A stretch of DNA of 64,000 bases from Clostridiales bacterium CCNA10 (GTDB lineage Bacteria; Bacillota; Clostridia; Oscillospirales; Oscillospiraceae): contig AP018533.1 of assembly GCA_003573975.1 (NCBI GenBank), positions 1,364,001 to 1,428,000 on the forward strand, read 5' to 3'. Position 1 is the stretch's first letter. Each line of letters opens with the position of its first letter. The position numbers and the translations under genes were made by a program. This document shows positions 6,172-48,793 of this stretch, in pieces. The notes below the pieces were generated by a model. That model ran no database searches, was not told the origin of the DNA, and saw only the letters and a list, made by a program, of their open reading frames with translations.

Positions 6172-7203
6172 ATGAAAATCATCGTGGACGCCATGGGCGG
6201 GGACAACGCCCCTCAGGCGCCGGTCATGGGCGCCATCCAGGCAAACAAGGAGTATGGGGTGGGCATCACCCTGGTGGGCCGGGGCGAGGACATCCTGAAG
6301 GTTCTGGAGGAAAACGGCATCCGGGAGCTGCCCGCCGGGGTGGAGATCGCCCACGCCTCTGAGGTGGTGGAGATCTGCGACAACCCGGCCACGGCCTTCC
6401 GGGAGAAGAAGGACTCCTCCCTGACAGTGGGGCTGAACCTGCTCAAGGCGGGGGAGGGGGACGCTTTTGTGTCCGCCGGCTCCACCGGCGCCCTGCTGGG
6501 CGCGGCCACCCTGCTGATCAAGCGGATCCGGGGGATCCGTCGGGCCGCGCTGGCCCCGGTGGTGCCCACCGGAAACGGAGGCGCAGTGCTGATCGACGCG
6601 GGGGCCAACGTGAAATGTCCGCCGGAGTATCTGATCCAGTTCGCCTATATGGGCTCCTACTACGCCGAGCACGTCCTGGGCCGTCCTCAGCCCAAGGTTG
6701 GACTGCTGAATATCGGGGTGGAGCCCTCTAAGGGCACGGAGCTCCAGACCACAGTGTACCCTCTGCTGAAACAGGCGGGGGAGGAGGGCCGCATCTGCTT
6801 CGTGGGCAACATCGAGGCCCGGGAAGCGGTGGAGGGCGCGGTGGATGTCATCGTGGCCGACGGCTATTCAGGAAATATTTTTCTGAAAACCATGGAGGGG
6901 ACCGGCCTGTTCCTCGCCAAGGAGATCAAGGGTATTTTTGTGAAAAATCTGATGACCAAGCTGGCTGCGGCCCTGGTCTCCGACGGGCTGAAGAAGTTCA
7001 AGAAGCTGATGAGCTCCAGCGAGGTGGGCGGGACCGCCCTGCTGGGTATCTCCAAGCCGGTGATCAAGGCCCACGGCTCTTCCGACGCCTATGCCATCAA
7101 AAACGCCATCCGCCAGGCCAATCAATTTGCCTCCTCCGGGATCATTGGGAATATCTCGGACAACATCGACCTGATGCGGCTGGACGCCCCGGAGGCAGAA
7201 TAA
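6172..7203 (+). CDS. plsX: Phosphate acyltransferase PlsX
   Basis: A 343-residue PlsX, converting acyl-ACP and phosphate to acyl-phosphate for the first step of phosphatidic acid synthesis. The N-terminal MKIIVDAMGGDNAP is the family hallmark. The glycine-rich FVSAGSTGALL and ADGYSGNIFLKTMEG segments are also typical. It is followed by acpP and rnc, the classical fatty-acid/rnc neighbourhood of Bacillota. acpP nevertheless has its own promoter. Confidence 0.97.
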   Translation: MKIIVDAMGGDNAPQAPVMGAIQANKEYGVGITLVGRGEDILKVLEENGIRELPAGVEIAHASEVVEICDNPATAFREKKDSSLTVGLNLLKAGEGDAFVSAGSTGALLGAATLLIKRIRGIRRAALAPVVPTGNGGAVLIDAGANVKCPPEYLIQFAYMGSYYAEHVLGRPQPKVGLLNIGVEPSKGTELQTTVYPLLKQAGEEGRICFVGNIEAREAVEGAVDVIVADGYSGNIFLKTMEGTGLFLAKEIKGIFVKNLMTKLAAALVSDGLKKFKKLMSSSEVGGTALLGISKPVIKAHGSSDAYAIKNAIRQANQFASSGIIGNISDNIDLMRLDAPEAE

Positions 7204-7242
7204 TAATTTTCCGGTGAATACACAGAAATTCCCGATTCCCTA

Positions 7243-7271
7243 TTGACAGGCAGGTAGTTTCTGCATATAGT
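7243..7271 (+). promoter_or_regulatory. Sigma-A-type promoter for acpP
   Basis: TTGACA, 17-bp spacer, TATAGT, about 45 bp upstream of the acpP start. This near-consensus promoter would allow high acpP expression independent of plsX. Confidence 0.8.
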
Positions 7272-7316
7272 AGGGAAAGAAACTATGCTGGAGCACAGCA
7301 AAAGGAGCAGTCAGCT

Positions 7317-7550
7317 ATGATTTTTGAAAAGGTATGCGCACTGATCGCGGAGCAGTTCAATGTGGATGCGGATTCCATTACCATGGATACCTCCTTTGAA
7401 GATGATCTGAACGCGGATTCTGTGGACATTGTGGATCTGTCCATGGCATTGGAGGAGGAATTTGATATTGACGAACTGACCGAGGAGGAAGCTGCCTCCA
7501 TCAAGTCGGTGGGTGATCTGGTCCGGTTCCTCCAGAACAAGATCGACTGA
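7317..7550 (+). CDS. acpP: Acyl carrier protein
   Basis: A 77-residue acidic carrier protein for fatty acid synthesis. The phosphopantetheine attachment Ser is at about residue 35 in [11 protein letters not shown]; the usual motif is DSLD, so Val replaces Leu. A four-helix carrier fold is expected. The ATG follows aaaggagca. It has its own strong promoter and a downstream hairpin, so it can be expressed as a short message between plsX and rnc. Confidence 0.95.
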
Positions 7551-7567
7551 TCCAAACGACATACATC

Positions 7568-7597
7568 GCAAAACTCCGCCAACCGGCGGAGTTTTGC
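7568..7597 (+). terminator. Hairpin after acpP
   Basis: A perfect 13-bp stem (GCAAAACTCCGCC / GGCGGAGTTTTGC) with an aacc loop. The U-tract is internal to the stem, so termination may be partial, with read-through to rnc. Confidence 0.65.
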
Positions 7598-7632
7598 TTG
7601 CCTGTCGAACCAAAGAATGAGGAGTGGTTCTG

Positions 7633-8304
7633 ATGACCACGTTGGAAGAAAAGCTGGGCTATGAATTCCGGGACCCGGCCCTGCTGGAAAATGCGCTGAC
7701 CCACAGCTCCTGCGCCAATGAGAGCCGGGGCAGGCGTCAGAGCAACGAGCGGCTGGAGTTCCTGGGCGATTCGATTTTGGGTATGGTGGTGGCCGACCAC
7801 CTGTACCGCAACCACCCGGATCTGCCCGAAGGGGAGCTGACCCGGACCCGGGCGGCCCTGGTGTGTGAGGACAGCCTGGTGGAGGTGGCGGAGGCGCTGC
7901 ATCTGGGCGAGTATCTGCACCTGGGCAAGGGGGAGGAGGCCGGCGGCGGCCGGAAGCGTCCCTCCATCCAGGCGGACGCCGTGGAGGCGGTGCTGGCTGC
8001 GGTCTATTTGGACGGCGGGATCGGCTCGGCCCGGAAGATCGTACAGCAGTATATCCTCTGCCGGGAGGTGGAGGGGCTGACCAGCCCCCGGGACTATAAG
8101 ACCGCCCTTCAGGAGCTGGTGCAGCGGGAGAGCGGCCAGGTTTTAAAGTACCGCCTGACCGGCGAGGAGGGCCCCGACCATGACAAGCGCTTCTTTGTAG
8201 AGGTGGATCTGAACGGGGAAGTGGCCGGCCGCGGCAAGGGACACAGCAAAAAAGAGGCCGAGCAGATGGCGGCCAAGGCTGCAATCGCCAAGTTGAAGGG
8301 ATAA
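7633..8304 (+). CDS. rnc: Ribonuclease III
   Basis: A 223-residue double-strand-specific endonuclease that processes rRNA precursors and structured mRNAs. The catalytic signature ERLEFLGDS lies at about 39-47, with the second acidic cluster in IQADAVEAVLAAVYLDGG. The C-terminal dsRNA-binding domain (about 150-223) has GKGHSKKEAEQMAAKAA. I take the ATG 9 bases after aggag; an in-frame GTG three codons earlier overlaps that site. Full length. Confidence 0.97.
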   Translation: MTTLEEKLGYEFRDPALLENALTHSSCANESRGRRQSNERLEFLGDSILGMVVADHLYRNHPDLPEGELTRTRAALVCEDSLVEVAEALHLGEYLHLGKGEEAGGGRKRPSIQADAVEAVLAAVYLDGGIGSARKIVQQYILCREVEGLTSPRDYKTALQELVQRESGQVLKYRLTGEEGPDHDKRFFVEVDLNGEVAGRGKGHSKKEAEQMAAKAAIAKLKG

Positions 8305-37119: not shown

Positions 37120-38301
37120 ATGGATTTCTTAGTTGAAGTTGTTACCAAAATCGCACAGGGTTCCGGCTTTGCCGCTCTGGACATCAAGACCGTTATCATG
37201 TTGGGCGTTGCCTGCGTCCTGCTGTATATGGGCATCGGCAAGGGCTTTGAGCCTCTGCTGCTGGTCCCCATCGCCTTCGGTATGCTGCTGGCCAATCTGC
37301 CTGTCACCGGCCTGTTTGCCGAGCCTGTCTATGACCCGGTAACGCACAGCGGTACGGTGGGCTTTATGTGGGTGCTCTATCAGGGCGTCCAGTATGCCAT
37401 CTATCCGTCGATCATCTTTATGGGAATTGGCGCTATGACCGACTTCGGTCCTCTGCTGGCCAACCCCATGTCCCTGATGCTGGGCGCTGCCGCTCAGCTG
37501 GGCATCTTCGCCGCGTTCCTGATGGCCCTGGTCCTGGGCCCCATCACCGGCGGCGTGATCAGCTTTACTCCCGCTGACGCCGCTGCCATCGGCGTCATCG
37601 GCGGCGCGGATGGCCCCACCGCCATTCTGACGGCCTCCAAGCTGTCTGTGGAGCTGCTGCCGGCCATTGCCATTGCGGCTTACTCCTACATGGCTCTGAT
37701 CCCCCTGATCCAGCCTCCTCTGATGCGCCTGATGACTACCAAGAAGATGCGTCAGGTCAAGATGAGCCAGCTGCGTGTGGTCTCCAAGACCGAGAAGATC
37801 ATCTTCCCCATCGCTGTGACCATCTTCGTGGTGCTGCTGATCCCCGATACCGCTCCTCTGATCGGTATGCTCATGCTGGGCAACCTGTTCCGTGAGTGTG
37901 GTGTCACCGAGCGTCTGTCCGATACCGCCCAGAACGCTCTGATCAACATCGTCACCATCCCCCTGGGCCTGTCCGTGGGCTTCAAGGCCACTGCGGATCA
38001 GTTCCTGACTCCCCAGACTCTGGGTATCGTGGCGCTGGGCCTGACCGCCTTCCTGCTGTCCACCGCCGGCGGCCTGCTGCTGGGCGACCTGATGTACGTC
38101 CTCACCGGCGGCAAGGTCAACCCCCTGATTGGCTCTGCCGGTGTGTCCGCTGTGCCCATGGCTGCCCGTGTCTCCCAGGTCGAGGGCCAGAAGGAGAATC
38201 CCTCCAACTTCCTGCTCATGCACGCCATGGGCCCCAACGTGGCCGGCGTGATCGGTTCCGCCTGCGCGGCCGGTTTCATGATCAAGGTGTTCGGTGGCTG
38301 A
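37120..38301 (+). CDS. gcdB: Glutaconyl-CoA decarboxylase beta subunit (Na+-translocating carboxybiotin decarboxylase)
   Basis: A 393-residue polytopic membrane protein that decarboxylates carboxybiotin and exports Na+. The conserved re-entrant motif with the key Asp is GVIGGADGPTAI (Asp about 164), and the second conserved segment is NPLIGSAGVSAVPMAAR. The first helix region is ALDIKTVIMLGVACVLLY. RBS gaaaggaggg. Sodium pumping here is the energy-conserving step of the pathway. Confidence 0.96.
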   Translation: MDFLVEVVTKIAQGSGFAALDIKTVIMLGVACVLLYMGIGKGFEPLLLVPIAFGMLLANLPVTGLFAEPVYDPVTHSGTVGFMWVLYQGVQYAIYPSIIFMGIGAMTDFGPLLANPMSLMLGAAAQLGIFAAFLMALVLGPITGGVISFTPADAAAIGVIGGADGPTAILTASKLSVELLPAIAIAAYSYMALIPLIQPPLMRLMTTKKMRQVKMSQLRVVSKTEKIIFPIAVTIFVVLLIPDTAPLIGMLMLGNLFRECGVTERLSDTAQNALINIVTIPLGLSVGFKATADQFLTPQTLGIVALGLTAFLLSTAGGLLLGDLMYVLTGGKVNPLIGSAGVSAVPMAARVSQVEGQKENPSNFLLMHAMGPNVAGVIGSACAAGFMIKVFGG

Positions 38302-38321
38302 TCCTGTTTCCCAAACAAAAA

Positions 38322-38357
38322 TATCGGACAGAGCGTGCGCTCTGTCCGATACTTTTT
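38322..38357 (+). terminator. Intrinsic terminator after gcdB
   Basis: A 14-bp perfect stem (TATCGGACAGAGCG / CGCTCTGTCCGATA) followed by CTTTTT. Confidence 0.9.
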
Positions 38358-38365
38358 AGAGTCAT

Positions 38366-38398
38366 CAAAAAGGCCGGTCTACATGACCGGCCTTTTTT
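38366..38398. terminator. Bidirectional terminator between gcdB and glsA
   Basis: AAAAAGGCCGGTC tacat GACCGGCCTTTTT: A-run on one side and T-run on the other, so it works for glsA on the minus strand and as a second terminator for gcdB. Confidence 0.88.
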
Positions 38399-38405
38399 GC
38401 ACAAA

Positions 38406-39323
38406 TCAGAAAATGCTCAGATACATTCTTCTGGACAGGCGCTCCAGGACCTGGATGCCGGCCACGCTGTTGCCCTTTTCATCCAGGGCCGGAGCAAAGA
38501 TGCCCACGCCCATCCGGGTTGGGACGACCCCCATGATACCGCCGCCTACGCCGCTTTTGGCCGGGATGCCCACCCGGATGGCGAAGTCTCCGGAGCCGTC
38601 ATACATCCCACAGGTCATCATGATGGCGTTGACATAGCGGGCGTATTCCGGCGGGAAGAGCTGTTCGTCCGACTGAAGGGCCTTGCCGTGGTTGGCCAGG
38701 ACAAAGGCGATATTGGCCAGATCCTTGCTGTTGACCCGGATCGAACAGGCCTTGAAGTAGCAGTCCAGCACCTCCTCCACACCGTCCTCCAGCATCCCAT
38801 AGGATTTGAGCAGGAAGGCCAGAGCGCGGTTCTTGCTACCGGTGCGCTTTTCGGAGAGGTAAACTGCCTCATCCAGGTCGATCTCCGGGTTGCCAGCCAG
38901 CTGCCGGGTGAAATTGAGCAGCCGCTGGAAGCGCTCCTCATAGCTGGAGCCGTGGATCAGGGTGCAGATGGCGATGGCGCCCATATTGACCATCGGGTTC
39001 AGATGGGCGCTGAGCAGGGGAGAGTCGGTCACATTGATGGCGTCAAAGGGCTTTCCGGTGGCCTCCACGCCCACTTTGGCGCGGACTACCTCCTCGCCGT
39101 TGTCCAACAGGGCGAGAAGCAGGAGGATCGGTTTGACAACGCTTTGGATGGTAAAGTGCTTGCGATAGGAGCCGGCCTGGTAGTGCCGTCCATCGCTGCG
39201 CAGGACGTAGATCCCCAGGTCGCTGGGGTCGCCCTTGGCCAGCTCCGGGATGTAGGTGGCGACTTTTCCATGAGCTGTGTAGGGCTGGCATTCTCTGAGC
39301 AGGGCATCCAACAGTTCTTCCAT
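38406..39323 (-). CDS. glsA: Glutaminase
   Basis: A 305-residue serine-dependent beta-lactamase-like glutaminase, turning glutamine into glutamate and ammonia. The catalytic Ser-x-x-Lys is SVVK in FTIQSVVKPILLLLAL, and MVNMGAIA, the Tyr/Ser-bearing MTCGMYDGSGDFA and PAKSGVGGGIMG are the usual motifs. RBS gaaaggaatgg. Placed tail-to-tail with the gcd genes, it probably feeds glutamate to the hydroxyglutarate pathway. Confidence 0.96.
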   Translation of the reverse strand: MEELLDALLRECQPYTAHGKVATYIPELAKGDPSDLGIYVLRSDGRHYQAGSYRKHFTIQSVVKPILLLLALLDNGEEVVRAKVGVEATGKPFDAINVTDSPLLSAHLNPMVNMGAIAICTLIHGSSYEERFQRLLNFTRQLAGNPEIDLDEAVYLSEKRTGSKNRALAFLLKSYGMLEDGVEEVLDCYFKACSIRVNSKDLANIAFVLANHGKALQSDEQLFPPEYARYVNAIMMTCGMYDGSGDFAIRVGIPAKSGVGGGIMGVVPTRMGVGIFAPALDEKGNSVAGIQVLERLSRRMYLSIF

Positions 39324-39440
39324 GTTATTCCATTCCTTTCGGCGTGGGATGCGGACCTTCGCCGCATCCGCAGGCGAATCTCATCACTCTTATTATATGC
39401 GATGTCGGGGTGCTTGTCCATCATGCCTGTAAAATTGAAA

Positions 39441-39474
39441 CGTCCGCCGGTCCCGAACAGGGGAGCGGCGGACG
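39441..39474 (-). terminator. Terminator after the Nramp-like gene
   Basis: On the minus strand, CGTCCGCCG and CGGCGGACG pair around a 16-nt loop and are followed by TTTCAATTTTA. Confidence 0.7.
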
Positions 39475-39494
39475 CTTGAAGCCATTCCCTTGGA

Positions 39495-40715
39495 TCAGAA
39501 GAGGGAAGTCAGGCTGTTGATGCCGATAACCAGAGAGATCAGGAACACCGCGGCGCCCAGCACATTCTGGATCATGCTGTTCTTGTACTGGCCCATAACG
39601 CGGCTGCGGCTGGTCACATAGACCAGGGTAAACACGATAATGGGGAGGAAGATGCCGTTGACGGCCTGGGCGGTCATGATGATCCAAATGGGGTTGAAGC
39701 CGGTGGCGGCCACGATGATGCCGGCCACGACCACGGCAATGTTCGTCCAGAAGAAGCGCTTATCCTTTTTGTTCATCTCCCAGCCAAACAGACCGGCCAG
39801 AACATAGGACACGCCCAGGGGGGTGATGACCGCGGAGGAGATCCCGGCGGCAATCAGGCCCATAGCCAGGAAGGGGACGGAGAAGCTGCCCAGAGTGGGC
39901 TCCAGCTGGACGGCCATGTCAATGGCAGAGTTGACCTCCATACCGCGCATCACAGTACCGGCGGTGATCATCACAGAGCCGGTGATCAGGCCGCCGATGA
40001 TCATGGAAACGGTGGTGTCGAACCGGGCCAGGGGGAGCTGCTTGGGGTCGTGCCAGGTCTTGCGGGAGGAGGTGGCGTGGATGAACATATTATAGGGGAC
40101 GACGGTGGTGCCGATGAGGGAGACGCAGGTCATAATGGAGCCCTCGGGAACAGAGGGAAGCGCGCCGGAAAATACCGTGCCCAGGTCAGGCTTGACCACG
40201 ATCATAGTCACCACAAAAACGATGGCCATCACGGAGACACAGACGGACAGCAGCTTTTCCAGGGATTTGACCGCGTCGCCAATGTTGATGATTACCAGGA
40301 TACAGCAGCCCCAGATGGGTGCAATGATGTTGGAGGGGATCCCGGTGATGGCGGAGAGACCGATGGCGGTGCCGGTGAGGTCGCCGCCCATGTATGCAAA
40401 TCCGCCCAGCGTGATCGCGGCCGCAACCAGAGCCACCATGAGCCATTTCAGGGGGGGACGGTCGGACAGGTCCTTGACCAGCTCCTCAGCCAGTCCGTTC
40501 TGGGTTACGATACCCAGCCGGGCGGCCATCTCCTGCATGACGATGACGGCGATGACAGAGAATACCACTGTCCACAGCAGCGCGTAGCCATAGCCCGCAC
40601 CGGCTTTTGTGGCGCTGGTGACAGTACCTGGACCAATGAAGGAGCCGACGACCAGAATACCGGGGCCCATTGCCTTCAGCTTGTCCTTCAGTGTGTACCG
40701 GTCTTTGATTTCCAT
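39495..40715 (-). CDS. Nramp-fold transporter lacking the canonical metal-binding motifs
   Basis: A 406-residue membrane protein of the Nramp (SLC11) family with about eleven helices. In ordinary Mn/Fe transporters helix 1 has DPGN and helix 6 has MPH. Here the equivalent segments are GPGT (28-31, in FIGPGTVTSA) and VPYN (206-209), so the Asp, Asn, Met and His are all replaced. Substrate is therefore unlikely to be a typical transition metal; Mg2+ or an organic cation are open options. Start ATG after aaggtgggg. Its promoter has an operator shared with the ureohydrolase gene across the IclR gene. Confidence 0.88.
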   Translation of the reverse strand: MEIKDRYTLKDKLKAMGPGILVVGSFIGPGTVTSATKAGAGYGYALLWTVVFSVIAVIVMQEMAARLGIVTQNGLAEELVKDLSDRPPLKWLMVALVAAAITLGGFAYMGGDLTGTAIGLSAITGIPSNIIAPIWGCCILVIINIGDAVKSLEKLLSVCVSVMAIVFVVTMIVVKPDLGTVFSGALPSVPEGSIMTCVSLIGTTVVPYNMFIHATSSRKTWHDPKQLPLARFDTTVSMIIGGLITGSVMITAGTVMRGMEVNSAIDMAVQLEPTLGSFSVPFLAMGLIAAGISSAVITPLGVSYVLAGLFGWEMNKKDKRFFWTNIAVVVAGIIVAATGFNPIWIIMTAQAVNGIFLPIIVFTLVYVTSRSRVMGQYKNSMIQNVLGAAVFLISLVIGINSLTSLF

Positions 40716-40790
40716 AGAGATCCCCACCTTAATTTTTGATTGACCGGGCGGCCCCGGTCCTGCTCTGTTCACGCTTCTTTCCACTCACAC

Positions 40791-40813
40791 TTGAAACGAT
40801 AATATCGTTTCAA
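40791..40813. promoter_or_regulatory. Operator palindrome, Nramp-like gene
   Basis: A perfect 11+1+11 palindrome, TTGAAACGATA a TATCGTTTCAA. It lies just downstream of the minus-strand -10, where a bound protein would block transcription. Its core AACGATA-N-TATCGTT recurs at 42893-42907. Confidence 0.8.
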
Positions 40814-40826
40814 AAACTATATTATC

Positions 40827-40855
40827 ATTATAATGGGAGGGGGGCAGATTGTCAA
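40827..40855 (-). promoter_or_regulatory. Promoter of the Nramp-like gene
   Basis: On the minus strand: TTGACA, 17-bp spacer, TATAAT, a consensus sigma-A promoter, with the operator at roughly +7 to +30. Confidence 0.85.
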
Positions 40856-40913
40856 GAAAAAAAGAGAGAGGAAGAAGAAAAATGTGAATCTTAACAAGAG
40901 ATTGGAAAAACTA

Positions 40914-40942
40914 TTGCCGTGAGCAAGAAATTATTGTAAAAT
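40914..40942 (+). promoter_or_regulatory. Promoter of the iclR-type gene
   Basis: TTGCCG, 17-bp spacer, TAAAAT, about 65 bp upstream of the start codon. It has no copy of the palindrome, so the regulator may be made constitutively. Confidence 0.6.
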
Positions 40943-41008
40943 ACACAAAAAAGGACCTGTACCTGGTGGTTTACCAATGGGTCTAACCGAGATTGCGAGG
41001 GATCCGAA

Positions 41009-41779
41009 ATGCCTGAGAAAGAGGTACGGGTGATTCAATCTGTCCAGCGGGCGATCGATATCATCAACTGCTTCGATGAGCACGAGCTGAAGCTGACGCT
41101 GCCGCAGATCAGCGCCAAGCTGGAGCTGAACATCAACACGGTCCGGGGGCTGGTGAATACCCTGGTGGCCAACGGCTACCTGGAGCATGTGGCAGATGGG
41201 AACTGCTATATGCTGGGACTGGCCTTCCTGCCGAAGGCGGATCTGGCCGGGGCCAACGACATTGACCGCCTGCGCAGCCGGGTGCGTCCGAGCCTGGAGC
41301 TGATCGCCGACCGCTTTCAGGTATCAGCCCGGATGCAGATCATCAGCAACGACAATATTTTTGCGGTGGAGGTGGTCAACCCCATCGATTCCCACTATAT
41401 TTTCCTGACCCGCCTCAATGCGGTGTTTACCCTGAATGCTACGGCCTCCGGCAAGCTGGTGCTCTATTACATGGACCAGCCCAGACGGGAGGCGTTTTAC
41501 CGCACTTTCGCCCCCAACAAGTATACCCGTCACACCATGACCACCCGGGAGGAACTGGAGGCGGACCTGGAGCAGATCCGCCTGCGGGGCTACTCCACAG
41601 AGTTTGACGAGTTCGGGGTGGGGATCAGTTGTATCGCGGTGCCCATCCTGCGGTGCAACGGCAGTCTGTACGGGACGGTGAGCATCGTGGCTTCTTCCTC
41701 CGTAGTGCAGGAGGTGGCGCAGCAGGCCCTTCCGCCAATGCGGGAGTTTGCCGCATTTGTTCGGAAGGAGCTGTTGTGA
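41009..41779 (+). CDS. IclR-family transcriptional regulator
   Basis: A 256-residue regulator with an N-terminal winged helix (about 5-65: IQSVQRAIDIINCFDEHE, LTLPQISAKLELNINTVRGLV) and an effector-binding domain (about 80-256: ATASGKLVLYYM, GYSTEFDEFGVGISCIAVPI, GTVSIVASSSVV). Effectors of the family are small acids and aromatic or nitrogen compounds. It is divergent from the Nramp-like gene, and the ureohydrolase gene is convergent with it. Both carry the same operator, so this is the likely repressor. Confidence 0.92.
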   Translation: MPEKEVRVIQSVQRAIDIINCFDEHELKLTLPQISAKLELNINTVRGLVNTLVANGYLEHVADGNCYMLGLAFLPKADLAGANDIDRLRSRVRPSLELIADRFQVSARMQIISNDNIFAVEVVNPIDSHYIFLTRLNAVFTLNATASGKLVLYYMDQPRREAFYRTFAPNKYTRHTMTTREELEADLEQIRLRGYSTEFDEFGVGISCIAVPILRCNGSLYGTVSIVASSSVVQEVAQQALPPMREFAAFVRKELL

Positions 41780-41805
41780 TTGGATAGCTCCGGCTAATGG
41801 AAGCA

Positions 41806-41857
41806 CCTATAAAAATATTGGGACCGTCCGGCTGGACGGTCCCAATATTTTTATAGG
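41806..41857. terminator. Very long bidirectional terminator
   Basis: A perfect 24-bp stem (41806-41829 with 41834-41857) with a ggct loop. Both arms carry A/T tracts, so it ends the iclR-type gene on one strand and the ureohydrolase gene on the other. Confidence 0.93.
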
Positions 41858-41885
41858 ACGAGAGGGAAGAAAAGCTGTATGAGCG

Positions 41886-42875
41886 TCATTTGTTGGCAAA
41901 GCGGTGCTGAGCCACACCATTCATAAAATAGAGGGCCATCCAGCAGGCTGTGTGGGCGGACTGGTGGGCGCCGCAGGTCTCCGGATAGATCTCGACAAAG
42001 TCGAAGGCGCCCGCACCGGCCTTACCGGCCTCGTGGAGCATCATGGCAACCTCGAAAGAGGTGGGGCCGCAGGGATCAAAGGGGCCCTGGGGGTTGGCGG
42101 CGGCATCCAGTACATCAGAGCAGACGGTGACGTAGATCACGTCGGTGTCCTTGCTGACGATGTCGATGGCCTTCTGAATGGAGGCCTGCCAGCCGTTGAG
42201 CTTGATCTCCCGGGCGGTGATCACAGTGGCGCCGGCCTTCTGGGCCTCGATGCGCTCCTGATGGTGGTTGCGGGGGCCGCGGATGCCGATGTGGACGATC
42301 TTGGTGGAGTCAAAGTTCTCATCCCCATATAGGCGGTTGAAGGGAGAGCAGCGGGAGTACAGGTCATCGCCGAAGGTGGGCATGGTGTCAAGATGGGCGT
42401 CAAAGTGCAGCACACCCACGCGCTTCTTGTGGCGGGTGCACAACTCACTGATCAGCGGATAGGAGATGGAGTGATCGCCGCCGAAAGTGATGGGCACACA
42501 GCCGGCATCCAGGATCTCGCCGATCCCCTTCCGCATGGAGGCGAAGCTGTACTCATAGCTGCCGTTCTGGATGGGGATATCGCCGTAGTCGCAGCAGCTC
42601 ATATAGTCGAAGGTATCGAAGTCATAGTCGGGGAGATAACCCACATAGCGGGTGGAGACGGAGCGGATGGTCTTGGGGGCAACCACGCAGGAGGAGAAGC
42701 CGCCATAGGTACAGCCGCCTTCGAAGGGCACACCCATGACCGCAAAGTCATACTGCTTCAATTCCTCCGCCGTTTTGGCGGTGGGCATCCCCATAAAGGA
42801 GGGGACACCACTGTAAATTTCATTTGGGACGACACCGGGCTGATAGATGGTAGGTACCGTTTTCAAGTTGAACAC
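41886..42875 (-). CDS. Arginase/agmatinase-family ureohydrolase with an unusual metal ligand
   Basis: A 329-residue ureohydrolase, a family that releases urea from guanidino compounds using two Mn2+ (or Ni2+) ions. Ligands visible: His135 in GGDHS and Asp159, His161, Asp163 in DAHLD. In the usual SFDxDxLDP motif, this protein reads TVCSDVLDAA, so the bridging Asp is Cys252 while Asp254 is kept; the Pro is also missing. The start is GTG after aagggg (TTG three codons on is possible). The substrate is unknown; agmatine, guanidine and guanidino acids are candidates. Shares an operator with the Nramp-like gene. Confidence 0.88.
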   Translation of the reverse strand: MFNLKTVPTIYQPGVVPNEIYSGVPSFMGMPTAKTAEELKQYDFAVMGVPFEGGCTYGGFSSCVVAPKTIRSVSTRYVGYLPDYDFDTFDYMSCCDYGDIPIQNGSYEYSFASMRKGIGEILDAGCVPITFGGDHSISYPLISELCTRHKKRVGVLHFDAHLDTMPTFGDDLYSRCSPFNRLYGDENFDSTKIVHIGIRGPRNHHQERIEAQKAGATVITAREIKLNGWQASIQKAIDIVSKDTDVIYVTVCSDVLDAAANPQGPFDPCGPTSFEVAMMLHEAGKAGAGAFDFVEIYPETCGAHQSAHTACWMALYFMNGVAQHRFANK

Positions 42876-42892
42876 ACCCCTTTATCTCGAGT

Positions 42893-42907
42893 AACGATAT
42901 TATCGTT
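42893..42907. promoter_or_regulatory. Operator palindrome, ureohydrolase gene
   Basis: AACGATA t TATCGTT, a perfect 15-bp palindrome with the same core as 40791-40813. A further half-site ACGATAA lies at 42914-42920. It lies downstream of the minus-strand -10 box. Confidence 0.8.
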
Positions 42908-42930
42908 TTTATCACGATAATTACACAAAT

Positions 42931-42959
42931 ATTATGGCACGAAGGGAACGGGATGTCAA
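42931..42959 (-). promoter_or_regulatory. Promoter of the ureohydrolase gene
   Basis: On the minus strand: TTGACA, 17-bp spacer, CATAAT, followed by the palindrome, the same layout as the Nramp-like gene promoter. Confidence 0.78.
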
Positions 42960-42978
42960 GTGTTTTATCCCGTTCCGG

Positions 42979-43941
42979 TCACCGGTCTGCCGCAGTCAGC
43001 GCCTGTACTGCGTCCGAGGTGTTCCCTGTGCTGAGGAGGAAAATGGTATAGTTGGTGCGGCCGGAGACAGCAACATAGTCGGAGGCCACCACATTGGCAG
43101 GGGGAGTGGAGCCCAGGAAGGCAGAGTCCAGCGTCTCGATGTCCGCATGGGAGGGGATGGGAGCGAGGTTGGTCTCGGCAAAGAAGAATTCGTATGTGCC
43201 GGGACGGATGCGTTTATAGCTGGTGGTCTCCTTAAACCGGACGTCTGTGTAGATCACCCGGCCATCCGCCAGAAGGACATCCAAAGGGTTGCTGTAATAG
43301 GCCAGATTGCTGACCCGGAGATTGGAGTAGCGGCCGGTGGGCGGACAGCACCGGTCTGAGATCTGGAGCAGATCCAGACCGCCGGCCCGGAGGATGACGG
43401 CCAGGGTTGAGACGCTCCCAGCGTCGAAGGGAATGCTCTTTTGCAGATAAATATAGCCGTCCAGACCGGCCACTGACACGGTATGATACCCGGCCCGCAG
43501 ACGGCGGTAGGGGGAGAGGCTGCCGCTCCCCAGGAATCGGACGGCCCGGACGCCGTCGATGAGGATCTGAAAGGAGGGATAGCCGTAAGCGGCGTTGAGG
43601 AAGCGGGCCTGAGCCGCGGCGGGCCATACAGGGATGCTGGGGATCCCGCTCCCCTGGCCGCCTGGATAGACAGGCCCTCCCTCACCGGGGTTGGGAAGGG
43701 GGATCACGGGGACGCCGCCGCCGGAGTCCACCGGGCCTCCCTCGCCCGGGTTGGGAAGGGGGATCACGGGAACGCCGCCGCCGGAGTCCACCGGGCCTCC
43801 CTCGCCCGGGTTGGGGAGAGGAATCACAGGGACGCCGCTGCCGGAGTCCACCGGGCCTCCCTCGCCTGGGTTGGGAAGGGGGATCACAGGGACGCCGCCG
43901 CCGGAAGATCTGCCGGAGCTGGGTTGGGAGAGATGACACAT
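42979..43941 (-). CDS. DUF4397-like protein with N-terminal Pro/Gly repeats
   Basis: A 320-residue protein. Residues about 14-95 are four near-identical 20-residue units (GGGVPVIPLPNPGEGGPVDS). The rest resembles two DUF4397-type beta-domains (AQARFLNAAYGYPSFQILIDG and NLRVSNLAYYSNPLDVLLADG). No signal peptide is visible, and the ATG has a weak RBS; a strong AAAGGAGG lies 40 bp upstream but no start codon follows it closely, so the true start is uncertain. It could be a spore- or surface-associated protein; function unknown. Confidence 0.75.
   Translation of the reverse strand: MCHLSQPSSGRSSGGGVPVIPLPNPGEGGPVDSGSGVPVIPLPNPGEGGPVDSGGGVPVIPLPNPGEGGPVDSGGGVPVIPLPNPGEGGPVYPGGQGSGIPSIPVWPAAAQARFLNAAYGYPSFQILIDGVRAVRFLGSGSLSPYRRLRAGYHTVSVAGLDGYIYLQKSIPFDAGSVSTLAVILRAGGLDLLQISDRCCPPTGRYSNLRVSNLAYYSNPLDVLLADGRVIYTDVRFKETTSYKRIRPGTYEFFFAETNLAPIPSHADIETLDSAFLGSTPPANVVASDYVAVSGRTNYTIFLLSTGNTSDAVQALTAADR
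43662..43906. repeat. 60-bp tandem repeat inside the DUF4397-like gene
   Basis: Four units of exactly 60 bp with only a few substitutions between copies, keeping the reading frame. They encode the 20-residue Pro/Gly units and could vary in number by slippage. Confidence 0.92.
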
Positions 43942-44053
43942 GGTATGGATCGGGCCCGCCGAGAGGCGGCGGGTCCGGCCTCCTTTCTATTCGATGCTCC
44001 ATCCTATTCCCGGTTCAGGGGCCTGGTGCGAAGAAAGGGCCCGGGATGCAAAA

Positions 44054-44080
44054 CAGCCCTCCGAGCCATTCGGAGGGCTG
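44054..44080 (-). terminator. Terminator after the AIM24 gene
   Basis: On the minus strand, CAGCCCTCCGA atggc TCGGAGGGCTG followed by TTTTG. Confidence 0.8.
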
Positions 44081-44098
44081 TAAAAGTTCTGTTTCAGA

Positions 44099-44869
44099 TC
44101 AGACCGCGCCGTTCAGGACGGGGGCCAGCAGCACCCGGCCCGTGCCGCGGTAGACGTTGACCAGGCCCTCGCCGGAGGCGGCGGAGCCGACCAGGGACTT
44201 GCCGGAGCGCTCCACAGTGAAATTCAGGCTGCCGCTCCAGGCGATGGCCATGTTGCCATCCACCTTCAGCACGTCGTCCTGAAGGGTGATCTCCACCAGC
44301 TCCTCCTTGGGGCAGAGGGACTCCAGGCAGACTACGCCGCTGCCCGCGATGCCCAGGTTGAACAGGCCCTCATTGCCGGCCACCGCCGAGGAGAAGTTGG
44401 ACCGCATGACCGCTTTGTGCTTCAGTCTGGAGTCACAGGCCAGGAACAGACCGTCGTCCAGAACGATGGAGCCGTTCCAGTCGGCCAGATCCAGCAGGAG
44501 AATATGCTGATAGGTAGGCTCCAGGACCAGGGTGCCGTCCCCGGTATATTCCGGTTTGATGGCGCTCTCACCGGTGACGCTGCCCCGAAGGGCTTTGCCG
44601 AACAGGTCGCCCACCCCCTTGACGCCGGTGGTGGCGTTGACGTTGCCCACCGTCCACTGCATGGCTCCGGCCTGGAGGGTGATATTTGCCTTGCTCAGGT
44701 CACAGATGACCTGGCGCTTGCGCACATTCATGGCGTTGCAGTAATAGGCCAGCTGGGCGCTGCCAGGCATGACACTCAGGTCCTTCTGGTATTCTATCAC
44801 GGTAAATGGGCCCAGGGAGTCGAGGATCTTGACGTCGTCATTGTTGGTAAAATTGTTGATCTGATACAT
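44099..44869 (-). CDS. AIM24-family protein
   Basis: A 256-residue protein of the AIM24/TIGR00266-type beta-sandwich family: LAYYCNAMNVRKRQVICDL, YTGDGTLVLEPTYQHILLLDL and GSGVVCLESLCPKEELVEI are characteristic. The biochemical role is not known; eukaryotic AIM24 is mitochondrial. Start is the second ATG, nine bases after agaaagg, three codons inside the first. Monocistronic between its terminator and the LysR gene. Confidence 0.85.
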   Translation of the reverse strand: MYQINNFTNNDDVKILDSLGPFTVIEYQKDLSVMPGSAQLAYYCNAMNVRKRQVICDLSKANITLQAGAMQWTVGNVNATTGVKGVGDLFGKALRGSVTGESAIKPEYTGDGTLVLEPTYQHILLLDLADWNGSIVLDDGLFLACDSRLKHKAVMRSNFSSAVAGNEGLFNLGIAGSGVVCLESLCPKEELVEITLQDDVLKVDGNMAIAWSGSLNFTVERSGKSLVGSAASGEGLVNVYRGTGRVLLAPVLNGAV

Positions 44870-44988
44870 GGCGTTCATCCTTTCTTCTGCGGCTGCCGGA
44901 GCGGAGCCGGGTGGTCCTGCCTGGATTATATCACAGGAGCCGGCGGCGGTCGAGAACTTTCAAAAGATTTTGCCTGCCAGCGGTGGGA

Positions 44989-45903
44989 TCAGCAGAGCCC
45001 GGGGTACTGGTGTTGAGAGGCCGTTTCCTCAAAATTGCGGCACAGGGCAATAAAATCCCGGGCCTGTGCGGTCAGAAATTTGTCCCGGTGATAGACGATC
45101 CGGAATTTCCGGTGGAACTCCAGCCCCTCCACAGTAACGGCGGACACCAGCCCGCGCTCCAAAGGGGCGGACACCATGCGGTAGGGCAGCACCGCAATGC
45201 CCAGGCCGCTGATGACCGCGTTGACCAGTGCGGTGGTGCTGGTGGCCTCCCAGGTGGGGGAGACGGTGAAGCCAGCCTGCTCCGTTACCCGCTCAAATTC
45301 CTCCCGTGTGCCGCTGCCCCGCTCCCGAAGCAGGAACTTCTGCTGACGGAATTCTGTCTGGGACAAGTGCTGACCAGGGCGGAAGGGGCCGTCTGTGGGG
45401 GTAATGACGACCAGATGGTCCTCCATATACTCTTCAGACTGCAGAGCGGGGACGTGGGGCACCCCTTCCATCAGGGCCAGGTCCAGCAGGTTGTCCATGA
45501 GTTTCTGCTCCAGCAACTTAGAGGGGGCCATCGTGGCCTGGATCTCCGCCCCGGGATGAAGGGCGCGGAAGCGCTTGACATAGCCGGGAAGGAACTGGGA
45601 GCCAATGGTGATGCTGGCCCCCACCCGAAGCAGCACGCAGCGGTCCCAACCGTGCAGCTGCCGCTCCATGTCGTCAAACAGGGCCGCGATGCGGGAGGCG
45701 TAGGAGGCGAAGCGCTCCCCGGTCGCGGTGATGCACAGCCGCCGGCCGATCCGGTCGAAGAGGACCACACCGTAGTGTGCCTCCAGTTCCCGGAGGGCCA
45801 GGCTTACCGCGGGCTGGGTCATGTGCAGGGCCTCCGCCGCCCGAGTGGTGTTATAGTCGTGCTCGCAGAGGGCGAGAAAGATTTTCATGTGCCGCAGGGT
45901 CAT
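44989..45903 (-). CDS. LysR-family regulator divergent from chrA genes
   Basis: A 304-residue LysR regulator: N-terminal helix-turn-helix (MKIFLALCEHDYNTTRAAEALHMTQPAVSLALRELE, read in pieces as NTTRAAEALHMTQPAVS and ALRELEAHYG) and a type 2 periplasmic-binding-like effector domain. ATG follows aagaggtgtggacc. It faces away from the chromate-transporter pair. An inverted repeat lies between them, so it most likely controls that pair. Confidence 0.9.
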   Translation of the reverse strand: MTLRHMKIFLALCEHDYNTTRAAEALHMTQPAVSLALRELEAHYGVVLFDRIGRRLCITATGERFASYASRIAALFDDMERQLHGWDRCVLLRVGASITIGSQFLPGYVKRFRALHPGAEIQATMAPSKLLEQKLMDNLLDLALMEGVPHVPALQSEEYMEDHLVVITPTDGPFRPGQHLSQTEFRQQKFLLRERGSGTREEFERVTEQAGFTVSPTWEATSTTALVNAVISGLGIAVLPYRMVSAPLERGLVSAVTVEGLEFHRKFRIVYHRDKFLTAQARDFIALCRNFEETASQHQYPGLC

Positions 45904-45917
45904 GGTCCACACCTCTT

Positions 45918-45944
45918 ATATTGATTTTATAATGAAATCAATAT
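45918..45944. promoter_or_regulatory. Probable LysR operator
   Basis: Perfect 10-bp arms ATATTGATTT and AAATCAATAT with a 7-bp spacer, in the intergenic region between lysR-type and chrA genes; it includes the T-N11-A form expected for LysR sites. A TATAAT for chrA lies further downstream. Confidence 0.65.
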
Positions 45945-46011
45945 CATAATATTATTTCCCTTATTATTTTGCAAGGCTTATAATGTTCAGGAAAAGAAGG
46001 AGGGAGCGGAT

Positions 46012-46587
46012 TTGAGTCAAAAGAAGAAGTACTGGACCCTGTTCCTGTCTACGTTCCAGCTCAGCGCGTTCACCTTTGGGGGCGGCTTTGTGATCATCCC
46101 CCTGATGCGCAAAAAGTTTGTGGAGAAGCTGAAGTGGATCGACGAACAGGAGATGCTGGACCTTACCGCCATCGCCCAGTCCTCGCCGGGGGCCATCGCA
46201 GTAAACGCGTCCATTCTGGTTGGCTACCGGGTGGCAGGGATCCCGGGGGCGCTGCTGACGGTGCTGGGCACCATCCTGCCGCCGCTGATCATCATTTCGG
46301 TGATCTCCATGTTTTACGCGGCCTTTCGGGATAACACCATTGTCAACATGGCAATGAATGGGATGCTGGCCGGTGTGGCGGCGGTGATCTGTGATGTGGT
46401 GCTCACCATGGGCGGCTCTGTGCTCCGGCAGAAACGGGTGCTCCCTGTGCTGGTTCTGGTGGGTTCTTTTGCGGCGGCCCGCTTCTGGGGCGTGAACATC
46501 ATGGTGATCATTCTGGTCTGCGGCCTCATCGGCGCGGCGGACACCTGCTGCCAGGAGAAGAAAAAGAAGGAGGGGGGCGGGACATGA
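46012..46587 (+). CDS. ChrA-family chromate transporter, first half
   Basis: A 191-residue membrane protein equal to one CHR domain: FQLSAFTFGGGFVIIPLMRKKFVEK, DLTAIAQSSPGAIAVNASILVGYRVAG, then about four helices. Short ChrA proteins occur in pairs and act together. Chromate export is the classical activity; the natural anion in anaerobes is often unknown. TTG start 10 bases after gaaggaggg. Overlaps the second gene by 4 bp. Confidence 0.9.
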   Translation: MSQKKKYWTLFLSTFQLSAFTFGGGFVIIPLMRKKFVEKLKWIDEQEMLDLTAIAQSSPGAIAVNASILVGYRVAGIPGALLTVLGTILPPLIIISVISMFYAAFRDNTIVNMAMNGMLAGVAAVICDVVLTMGGSVLRQKRVLPVLVLVGSFAAARFWGVNIMVIILVCGLIGAADTCCQEKKKKEGGGT

Positions 46588-47147
46588 TCTATGTGGAACT
46601 GCTGTGGAGCTTCTTTCAGATTGGGCTGTTCAGCATCGGCGGCGGCTATGCGGCTATGCCGCTGATCCAGCACCAGGTGGTGGACCTCCATCCGTGGCTG
46701 ACCATGACTCAGTTTGCTGATATTATGACCATTGCGGAGATGACCCCCGGCCCCATTGCCATCAATTCTGCCACCTTTGTGGGGATCCAGGTGGCTGGAC
46801 TGCCAGGGGCGCTGGTGGCTACGCTGGGGTGTATTCTGCCCTCCTGCATCATTGTGATGGCGCTGGCCTACCTCTATTACCGGTATAAGGGACTGTCTAT
46901 GGTGCAGGGGATCCTGTCCGGGCTGCGGCCTGCGGTGGTTGCTATGATTACCTCCGCCGGGATCTCCCTGCTGATTTTGTCCCTCTATGGTGCGCAGGAG
47001 CTCCCCGCTGACCTGAGCGGCGTCGACTGGATCTCCATGGGCATTTTCACAGTGGCCATCCTGATCCTCCGCCGCTGGAAGGTGAACCCAATCTGGATCA
47101 TGGCGGGCGCCGGCGCGGCAGGTGTCCTGCTGTACAGCATCCTGTAA
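46584..47147 (+). CDS. ChrA-family chromate transporter, second half
   Basis: A 187-residue second CHR-domain protein: SFFQIGLFSIGGGYAAMPLIQ and IAEMTPGPIAINSATFVGIQVAG parallel the first. The pair would form a full antiporter-like unit. Translationally coupled through the ATGA overlap. Confidence 0.9.
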   Translation: MIYVELLWSFFQIGLFSIGGGYAAMPLIQHQVVDLHPWLTMTQFADIMTIAEMTPGPIAINSATFVGIQVAGLPGALVATLGCILPSCIIVMALAYLYYRYKGLSMVQGILSGLRPAVVAMITSAGISLLILSLYGAQELPADLSGVDWISMGIFTVAILILRRWKVNPIWIMAGAGAAGVLLYSIL

Positions 47148-47167
47148 ATGTACAAGGCTGAAAAAGG

Positions 47168-47196
47168 CCAGGCCCACGGTTCCGCCGTGGGCCTGG
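47168..47196. terminator. Bidirectional terminator between chrA pair and brnQ
   Basis: 12-bp perfect stem (CCAGGCCCACGG / CCGTGGGCCTGG) with A-run upstream and T-rich sequence downstream, between convergent genes. Confidence 0.78.
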
Positions 47197-47234
47197 TCCT
47201 CTTGATATTTTTTGGGGTAGTCGGGAGGTAGGGC

Positions 47235-48509
47235 TTACTGTTCCGCCCCAGCGGAGTCCGGTTTGGAGAGCAGCCAGCCCAGCACGCCGCCAACGATCGC
47301 GGGGATAAGCCAGCCGAAGCCATAGTCATAAAAGGGGAGGCATGACACCAGGGGGAACAGCTTGAAGTAGGAGTGGAGGGCCAGTAGCAGGCTGGCGGCG
47401 GTAGCGCCCAGAGCCGCCCCCTTGTAAAGTCCTGGGCGGCGGATATGGTCCTGAAAGAACAGGAGGACCACCGTAGTCATAAAGGGGGGACAGATGACCG
47501 ACAGGATGGGGGAGGCTGCCTCGATGATGGTGGACAGTCCCAGGTTGCAGATGGCACAGCCAATCACGCTGAGAATCATGATACCGGCGCGGTAGGAGAG
47601 ACGGCCGTGGGTGATCCGCTGGAAATAAGAGGCAGTGGCTCCGAACAGGCCAATGGAGGTGGTCAGGCAGGCGAAACCCACCACGATGGCCAGGACGATC
47701 ACGCCGAAGCGGCCCAGAAGCTGATGGGTGATGGCGACGATCAGACCGGCCTGGTCCAGTCCCTGGTCCAGAAACACACCAGCAGTGGCGCCCAGATAGG
47801 TCAGACCGCTGTATACCAGCGCCAGCAGGAGCCCGGCCACACAGGCAGTCCCGGCTACATGGCGGCGCTGCTGGGGCCAAGTCCTCAGGCCGGACTGGGA
47901 CAGGGTATCTTGGATGATGACGGCAAAGCCGGCCACCGAGATGATGTCCATGGCCTGATACCCAGCCAGAAGGCCGTCTTGGACGATGTTGGGAGAGACG
48001 GGGGGCTCAATGGGCCCGATGGGGTGCAGGATGCCCGCCAGAATCAGCACCAGAATACCCAGGATCAGCACCGGCGTCAGGCACCGGCCCACAATGTCCA
48101 CCACACGGGTGGGGCGGATGGTCAGCAGAAAGACCACAGCAAAAAACAGAATGGAGAAGGGGAGCAGGTCCAGCTTGTCCGTCAGCGGCTGGATGGCCAT
48201 TTCATAGGTGGTGGCGGCGGTACGGGGGGGCGCGATGAATACGCCGGTGCACAGAATGGCCGCCGTGTTCAGCACCGCGCCGGGAGCGGCGCCCACCGAT
48301 TTCTGCATGGCCCGGATGCTGCCGCCGCCGTGGAGCATGGCGTGAATCCCCACACAGGAGAGGATCTCCACGAGAAAAAAGCTGAGGAAACCGGCGATCC
48401 ACTGGCTTCCGCCGGTCATGCCCAGATAGGGAGGAAAGATCAGGTTTCCAGCCCCAAAGAACATAGCGAACAGCGCAAAGCCGGAGACAAGAATGCTGCC
48501 TGTACCCAT
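47235..48509 (-). CDS. brnQ: Branched-chain amino acid:cation symporter BrnQ
   Basis: A 424-residue LIVCS-family transporter importing Leu, Ile and Val with Na+ or H+. The N-terminal LVSGFALFAMFFGAGNLIFPPYLG is diagnostic, with twelve hydrophobic segments. Start ATG seven bases after ggaggta rather than an in-frame ATG five codons earlier. It complements the AzlCD exporter elsewhere in the window. Confidence 0.93.
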   Translation of the reverse strand: MGTGSILVSGFALFAMFFGAGNLIFPPYLGMTGGSQWIAGFLSFFLVEILSCVGIHAMLHGGGSIRAMQKSVGAAPGAVLNTAAILCTGVFIAPPRTAATTYEMAIQPLTDKLDLLPFSILFFAVVFLLTIRPTRVVDIVGRCLTPVLILGILVLILAGILHPIGPIEPPVSPNIVQDGLLAGYQAMDIISVAGFAVIIQDTLSQSGLRTWPQQRRHVAGTACVAGLLLALVYSGLTYLGATAGVFLDQGLDQAGLIVAITHQLLGRFGVIVLAIVVGFACLTTSIGLFGATASYFQRITHGRLSYRAGIMILSVIGCAICNLGLSTIIEAASPILSVICPPFMTTVVLLFFQDHIRRPGLYKGAALGATAASLLLALHSYFKLFPLVSCLPFYDYGFGWLIPAIVGGVLGWLLSKPDSAGAEQ

Positions 48510-48793
48510 GAATGATACCTCCAAAAAAGAAAATCCGCCGGATGACGGATGAATATTTTACTTTATCATACCGAATCTTGCACTGATATGCAAGAGAAAC
48601 TTCAAACAATATTTTTAGAGGGGTAAAAAATGCATCTTGTTTTATAACTTGATTGAAAACAGCGAAAATTCTGATTTGTGGTTATATTTGATGAGATCAA
48701 CAATCGTGCAAGCTGGAAGACGGTCATTTACCATCAAAAAACACGCCAGCCGCTCGGTGATCCAGGCGGCTGGCGTGGAGAAGATACAATGCA
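48510..48793. other. Gap between brnQ and hydA
   Basis: About 280 bp. It has the brnQ upstream region (minus strand, near 48530-48600) and, at 48742-48777, the hyd operon terminator. The open frame on the plus strand has no RBS and I see no gene. Confidence 0.5.
48742..48777 (-). terminator. Terminator of the hydrogenase operon
   Basis: On the minus strand, a perfect 12-bp stem (CACGCCAGCCGC / GCGGCTGGCGTG) with a 12-nt loop is followed by TTTTTTG. Confidence 0.88.

Follow-up and report, generated by a model that had tools for sequence, protein, structure and literature searches.

Of the two Asp in the DxD motif of ureohydrolases, the first bridges both metals of the active site (PMC6988801). 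The same source describes the arginase of Zymomonas mobilis (zmARG), an enzyme of the arginase fold with a Cys metal ligand, the sulphur of which binds zinc in the crystal, and with Mn-dependent activity. The MefH alpha subunit of metformin hydrolase uses four Asp and two His ligands, needs nickel and has hypA and hypB in its operon (PMC11399263). Formimidoylglutamases (HutG) share the arginase fold, and the solved structures from Vibrio cholerae (1xfk) and Bacillus subtilis (3m1r) have Asp at the bridging position. The first-shell mutants of rat arginase (1p8q and 1p8r) may include the bridging Asp. In Pseudomonas aeruginosa PAO1, PA3175/hutE is reported to provide a branch by which formiminoglutamate is broken down, and to share a transcript with a regulator of the IclR type that is inducible by formiminoglutamate (PMC12977541). 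In an earlier report, PA3175 shares an operon of three genes with the carrier PA3176 and a putative regulator, and the proposal is instead that PA3175 may cleave N-acetylglutamate, because a PA3176 mutant lost growth on that compound (PMC2542419); this argues against counting PA3175 as a proven formiminoglutamase on that paper alone.

We analysed a stretch of 64,000 nucleotides (the window) from a bacterium related to Pseudoflavonifractor, which carries a ureohydrolase gene in which Cys occupies the position of the bridging Asp. The open frame begins with GTG at 42875 on the minus strand and continues to the stop, encoding 329 amino acids; a plus-strand reading of 41886-42875 was rejected, since the ureohydrolase reads on the minus strand. 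Translation probably starts at TTG 42866 (gene 41886..42866, minus strand) rather than at the GTG, because the closest relatives (L001-L004) have ATG at the matching codon and because the Shine-Dalgarno-like aaagggg read at 42877..42883 (minus strand), ten bases before the TTG, fits it better. Residue numbers count from the GTG; with the TTG start, Cys252 is residue 249. The Pfam Arginase model PF00491 matches residues 43-316 with 194.6 bits, against a threshold of 22. GGDHS and DAHLD are intact, as had been predicted, at residues 132-136 and 159-163; GGDH (residues 132-135; 42471..42482, minus strand) supplies the predicted metal ligand His135, and DAHLD (42387..42401, minus strand) the ligands Asp159, His161 and Asp163. 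The third motif, CSDVLD (residues 252-257; 42105..42122, minus strand), keeps Asp254 and lies in the context VTVCSDVLDAA, with Cys252 encoded by TGC (42120-42122, minus strand).

When aligned, VCSDVLDAA of the window protein lies over FDIDCIDAG of the guanidine hydrolase 7esr and VDIDVVDPA of the proclavaminate amidinohydrolase 1gq6, with Cys252 on the first Asp of their DxD pair and Asp254 on the second. Neither alignment offers a substitute Asp elsewhere in the loop, and the original prediction, that Cys252 stands in place of the metal-bridging Asp, is borne out. The accompanying claim, that the Pro after the last Asp has been lost, is true of the window protein but makes a weak hallmark, since one relative with the same Cys (L123) keeps the Pro, reading IDPAYNP, and 24 of 93 Asp-bearing sequences are without it. 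Four loci approximately 94% identical to the window protein carry the same Cys, so that Cys252 is no sequencing slip; a lone mutant was likewise rejected as its source, the Cys being found throughout a clade of relatives.

This clade has 18 members, comprising the window protein, the four loci at ~94% identity (in Pseudoflavonifractor sp. An184, Candidatus Enterenecus stercoripullorum, an uncultured Oscillospiraceae genome and an 'uncultured bacterium') and thirteen at ~36-54%, and all 18 have Cys252. Searches at the level of the order (394 genomes) and of the family (400 genomes) found a strong match in the window's own genome only, the next best being 33-34% identical, and the 291 genomes of its own class gave strong matches in two further genomes. 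Across 398 genomes of the phylum search there were strong matches in three others (G1115, G777 and G1016); within the class of G1115, strong matches occurred in nine of 154 genomes, itself included, and within that of G1016 in one of 13, namely G1016 itself. Every match above 230 bits has the Cys. Plasmid searches gave 478 and 533 records, the best matches listed being 28-36% identical, and all four plasmid relatives that were translated (L093, L094, L129 and L130) have Asp, as does the one distant relative (L125) found on viral contigs.

Alignments and trees were built from 124 matching loci, of which 107 plus the window were used initially, after removal of short ORFs and of second copies of a gene. 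The final alignment of 109 rows was made without the near copies L003 and L004, the open-ended L029, and L133 and L134, and with L129-L132 added. Cys occurs in 16 rows and Asp in all 93 others, none of them HutG. The other five ligands (His135, Asp159, His161, Asp163 and Asp254) are kept in every Cys row, and Glu295 (41991..41993, minus strand) is the same in 109 of 109. The Cys is one of several coordinated changes, because six further residues are also fixed in the 16 Cys rows: E52 (Asp in 90/93 others), R175 (42351..42353, minus strand; His in 76/93 others and Arg in 1/93), S253 (Ser in 0/93), N261 (Asn in 0/93), D267 (Asp in 1/93) and H308 (His in 3/93). Cys63 and Cys176 were considered as further ligands, being invariant in the first six members examined, but neither is fixed across the clade, since Thr takes the place of the first in L132 and Asn that of the second in L122. 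For the trees, near-identical agmatinases were thinned, leaving 79 rows including 11 of HutG, and two long rows (L051 and L039) were dropped from the more careful tree (77 rows). With the motif columns masked, the clade is supported 100/100. The expectation that the Cys marks a distinct clade is supported by this result and by its presence in all members; on the sequences compared, the exchange is genuine and conserved, and belongs to a distinct ureohydrolase subfamily that apparently has no previous characterisation. The open-access literature searched yielded no papers on this clade.

The same exchange has occurred in HutG. Asp is replaced by Cys at the equivalent position in eight of the 14 formimidoylglutamases examined, although this is not an estimate of frequency because the sample was picked by similarity to a Cys-bearing query. 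The Cys motif reads TICSD in two genomes and in Acetoanaerobium, TICTD or TLCTD in Fusobacterium and Cetobacterium, TVCLD in a P. aeruginosa plasmid copy, TICLD in Legionella adelaidensis and TLCLD in Xanthomonas perforans, while sequences from Aeromonas, Cupriavidus, Arthrobacter, Moraxella, Acinetobacter and Tsukamurella have Asp. The HutG family holds both residues, the Cys-bearing loci being L133, L134, L135, L136, L137, L139, L142 and L149; L148-L150 entered this count and are absent from the trees. Three of the 'plasmid' records (L135, L138 and L148), at 2.6, 4.9 and 4.0 Mb, are as large as chromosomes and may be just that. A single origin of the Cys, in which the 16 clade rows were joined with the seven Cys-bearing HutG rows, was rejected in a comparison of two trees with motif columns masked (AU p 3.7e-60). 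A branch with 100/100 support separates the 16 clade rows from the rest, and the distribution of Asp and Cys takes three changes to explain on the quick tree and four on the careful tree. The clade and HutG gained the Cys independently of each other. The P. aeruginosa plasmid copy sits in an IclR-hutG-gltS operon and, by its name and gene order, would correspond to PA3175.

The original prediction took the Cys to imply new chemistry and the evidence does not support this as stated, since the same exchange arose separately in HutG and a Cys ligand is also found in zmARG. The refutation proposed with the prediction, that Cys would prove common in a clade already characterised, applies in part, in a neighbouring family. 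By itself, Cys at the bridging position is no evidence of new chemistry and need not mean it, because the change recurs in a family annotated for ordinary C-N hydrolysis.

Placement within known families gives no ready name to the window protein, which falls below the cut-off of all five NCBIfam models that it matched. Agmatinase models are the two best of these, TIGR01230 giving 105.9 bits against a cut-off of 174.3 (150.3, 171.4 and 105.8 for the clade members L132, L090 and L123); the HutG model TIGR01227 gives 103 against 229.15, and the arginase model TIGR01229 gives 48.7 against 227.6. Membership of the PF00491 superfamily is indicated by the Pfam score, the fold, GGDH and DAHxD, with the first Asp of DxD as the missing element; the Cys does not exclude the clade because HutG members also vary at the bridging position. 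A fold model based on 56 family sequences reached a mean pLDDT of 90.3 (76.7 when based on six), and Z scores of the fold models against the solved ureohydrolases listed ranged from 27.8 to 43.0. The best match was the metformin hydrolase MfmA (Z 43.0, 2.1 A over 323 residues), followed by guanidine hydrolases such as GdmH (Z 41.9-42.5), and B. subtilis HutG 3m1r gave Z 40.1 at 1.7 A over 289 residues; 7esr was the best sequence match in the PDB (1.2e-34). Although MfmA/MefH and GdmH are the best structural matches, the window enzyme differs from MefH alpha in having Cys for one of the Asp ligands, and HypA/HypB were absent from the nine neighbouring ORFs scanned, a subset of those within 37120-48524. 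It shares PF00491, GGDHS, DAHxD and the second Asp of DxD with agmatinase and proclavaminate amidinohydrolase, but is set apart from that group by Cys252, Arg175 and an NPxGPxDPxG-type loop. HutG resembles it in its fold, in the Cys of eight of the 14 examined and, in the P. aeruginosa copy, a nearby IclR regulator and carrier, but the 11 HutG rows have GGGH and Ser at position 175 where the clade has GGDH and Arg. In zmARG it is the His of GGDHS that Cys replaces, with both Asp of DxD kept (PMC6988801). Two more arginase-family genes are present in the window genome, L005 (C1:523753) and L007 (C1:1152572), of which L005 has the usual Asp.

In the window, the ureohydrolase gene is convergent with an IclR-family regulator (41009..41779, plus strand), beyond which lie an NRAMP-family carrier (39495..40784, minus strand) and a glutaminase (38406..39323, minus strand). 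The regulator holds the same place in L001-L004, and the whole order is repeated in L002-L004, while L001 reaches its contig end after the carrier gene. The carrier type recurs beside a more distant clade member (L131, 54% identical to the window protein), where the genes are IclR, ureohydrolase, an EutA/arylmalonate-decarboxylase-family gene (below the cut-off of the EutA model), an NRAMP-type carrier 60% identical to that of the window, PatB and glutamine synthetase. In all, an importer adjoins the ureohydrolase gene in 17 of 18 clade loci: an NRAMP-type carrier in six and LivKHMGF in 11. The latter are 11 of the 13 loci that remain once the window and L001-L004 are set aside, and have the Liv genes on the same strand; in L091 and L132 the ureohydrolase gene lies between LivG and LivF. 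The exception is L123, where no importer adjoins directly; its Liv genes are on the opposite strand, at a distance of approximately 5 kb.

Downstream genes differ among lineages, although many encode enzymes of amino acids or N-carbamoyl amino acids. An OCD/mu-crystallin-family gene is found in six loci (L090, L116, L117 and L119-L121), its products falling under every specific cut-off; in L118 and L122 the next gene passes the N-methyl-L-tryptophan oxidase model NF008425; in L123 a threonine dehydrogenase and a glycine C-acetyltransferase-type enzyme follow; in L091 and L132, LivF and an ATC-hydrolase-family protein follow, and an M20 hydantoinase/carbamoylase-type enzyme belongs to the same cluster; L092 ends just past the ureohydrolase gene. 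L118 also has an OCD-family gene (7019-8017; 34% identity to the one in L090), in divergent orientation near its oxidase gene. An Rfam search gave no matches in the window, L002 or L091; the elements that it found in L131 (a cobalamin riboswitch) and L132 (an S10 leader) are remote from the ureohydrolase gene.

The canonical metal-binding motifs of NRAMP carriers are DxxN and A/CxxM (PMC8806188), and the window carrier has neither, with GPGT aligned to the DPGN of solved members and TTVVPY at the second position (VPY over MPH); it passes NCBIfam NF037982 with 79.7 against a cut-off of 50. Its haloarchaeal relatives (41-43% identical) stand beside hydantoinase/oxoprolinase subunits in all three plasmid neighbourhoods read, two of which also have an Asp/Glu racemase or maleate isomerase. 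The position of these relatives beside hydantoinase/oxoprolinase genes suggests an organic substrate for the window carrier, which is without the metal-binding Asp, Asn and Met. Together, the neighbours and carriers of the clade point to the breakdown of a small amidine or ureide that resembles an amino acid and is imported, but the neighbours vary between lineages and name no single substrate, and the window's own partners (the NRAMP-type carrier and glutaminase) give no clear pointer to an N-amidino acid.

On balance, we lean towards the view that the protein is an active dinuclear hydrolase of the ureohydrolase fold, with one thiolate ligand, which acts on an imported N-amidino or N-formimidoyl compound and frees an amino acid. 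Conservation of the fold and motifs, the Cys throughout the clade, the coordinated changes and the neighbourhood of carriers and amino-acid enzymes are observed; the binding of two metals, the role of Cys as ligand, the kind of reaction and the class of substrate are what we infer. His135, Asp159, His161, Asp163 and Asp254, together with the Cys252 thiolate, would coordinate two divalent metals, and a bridging water activated by them would attack an amidine-type carbon (guanidino or formimidoyl) and hydrolyse the C-N bond. The substrate would arrive through the dedicated carrier and is probably a small amino acid with an N-amidino or N-formimidoyl group; the products would be a free amino acid and urea or formamide. 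A carboxylate near the carbon under attack could be held by Arg175. The most economical view would be an ordinary dinuclear site that activates water and includes the Cys252 thiolate, with precedents in the Cys ligand of zmARG and in Cys-bearing HutG.

Narrower versions of this reaction can be proposed. A novel creatine or guanidinoacetate amidinohydrolase, converting an alpha-guanidino acid to urea and sarcosine or glycine, would suit the genes passing NF008425 that directly follow in L118 and L122, the threonine dehydrogenase and glycine C-acetyltransferase-type genes of L123, the hydantoinase/carbamoylase family member of L091 and L132, and an Arg175 placed to bind a close carboxylate. Nevertheless, the L118 and L122 oxidases fall under the cut-off of TIGR01377 (monomeric sarcosine oxidase), NF008425 may span a broad group, the tdh-kbl genes may be an unrelated pair, and six loci have an OCD-family gene instead; human AGMAT, a related ureohydrolase, hydrolysed neither guanidinoacetate nor creatine (PMC9772407). 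A search for GRDB (glycine/sarcosine/betaine reductase) found none in the window genome, but the control genomes gave no match either, so that this absence carries little weight. We regard this amidinohydrolase as unlikely, and the fuller proposal of a new subfamily that hydrolyses an alpha-guanidino acid (such as creatine or guanidinoacetate), with a metal preference shifted by the thiolate (for example towards Zn, Fe or Ni) and its own LivKHMGF or repurposed NRAMP-type importer, as quite unlikely. It is likewise unlikely that the enzyme carries out a HutG-like reaction on a formimidoyl amino acid other than formiminoglutamate, having undergone its own change from Asp to Cys. The shared Cys, the IclR regulator and GltS carrier of the P. 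aeruginosa operon, and the rmsd to 3m1r, lowest among the 50 structures listed, would agree with such an enzyme, but the TIGR01227 score lies far under its cut-off, GGDH and Arg175 differ from the GGGH and Ser of the HutG rows compared, and the tree rejects a joint clade.

A different role for the Cys itself would depart further from the thiolate-ligand hydrolase that we favour. A nucleophilic Cys is a feature of guanidino deiminases, and were Cys252 a nucleophile, ammonia would be released and an N-carbamoyl product left for the M20 enzyme encoded in the L091 and L132 clusters; this is very unlikely, given that M20 genes were found in two of 17 loci searched, that all five other metal ligands are kept and that Cys-bearing HutG are annotated as C-N hydrolases. 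The loss of one canonical ligand might alternatively indicate a non-catalytic or regulatory protein, comparable to the beta subunits of metformin hydrolase, which are degenerate family members. Those subunits, however, have lost four of six ligands (PMC11399263), whereas five of six are kept here over large divergence, and L005 and L007, the further members of the arginase family in the window genome, are far off, outside the window; we consider such a role highly improbable.

Among ureohydrolases, Cys has taken the place of the bridging Asp at least twice independently, in this clade and in HutG, and the repeated swap represents a natural experiment on the effect of a thiolate at a dinuclear hydrolase site. 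The clade would also define an uptake-and-hydrolysis system for a nitrogen compound without earlier characterisation, the window's version of which employs an NRAMP-family carrier devoid of the metal-binding residues. Next to the window ureohydrolase gene, a minus-strand gene for a DUF4397 protein contains a 60-base tandem repeat (43676-43905; 3.8 copies, 91% matches), which encodes a PNPGEGGPV-type repeat.
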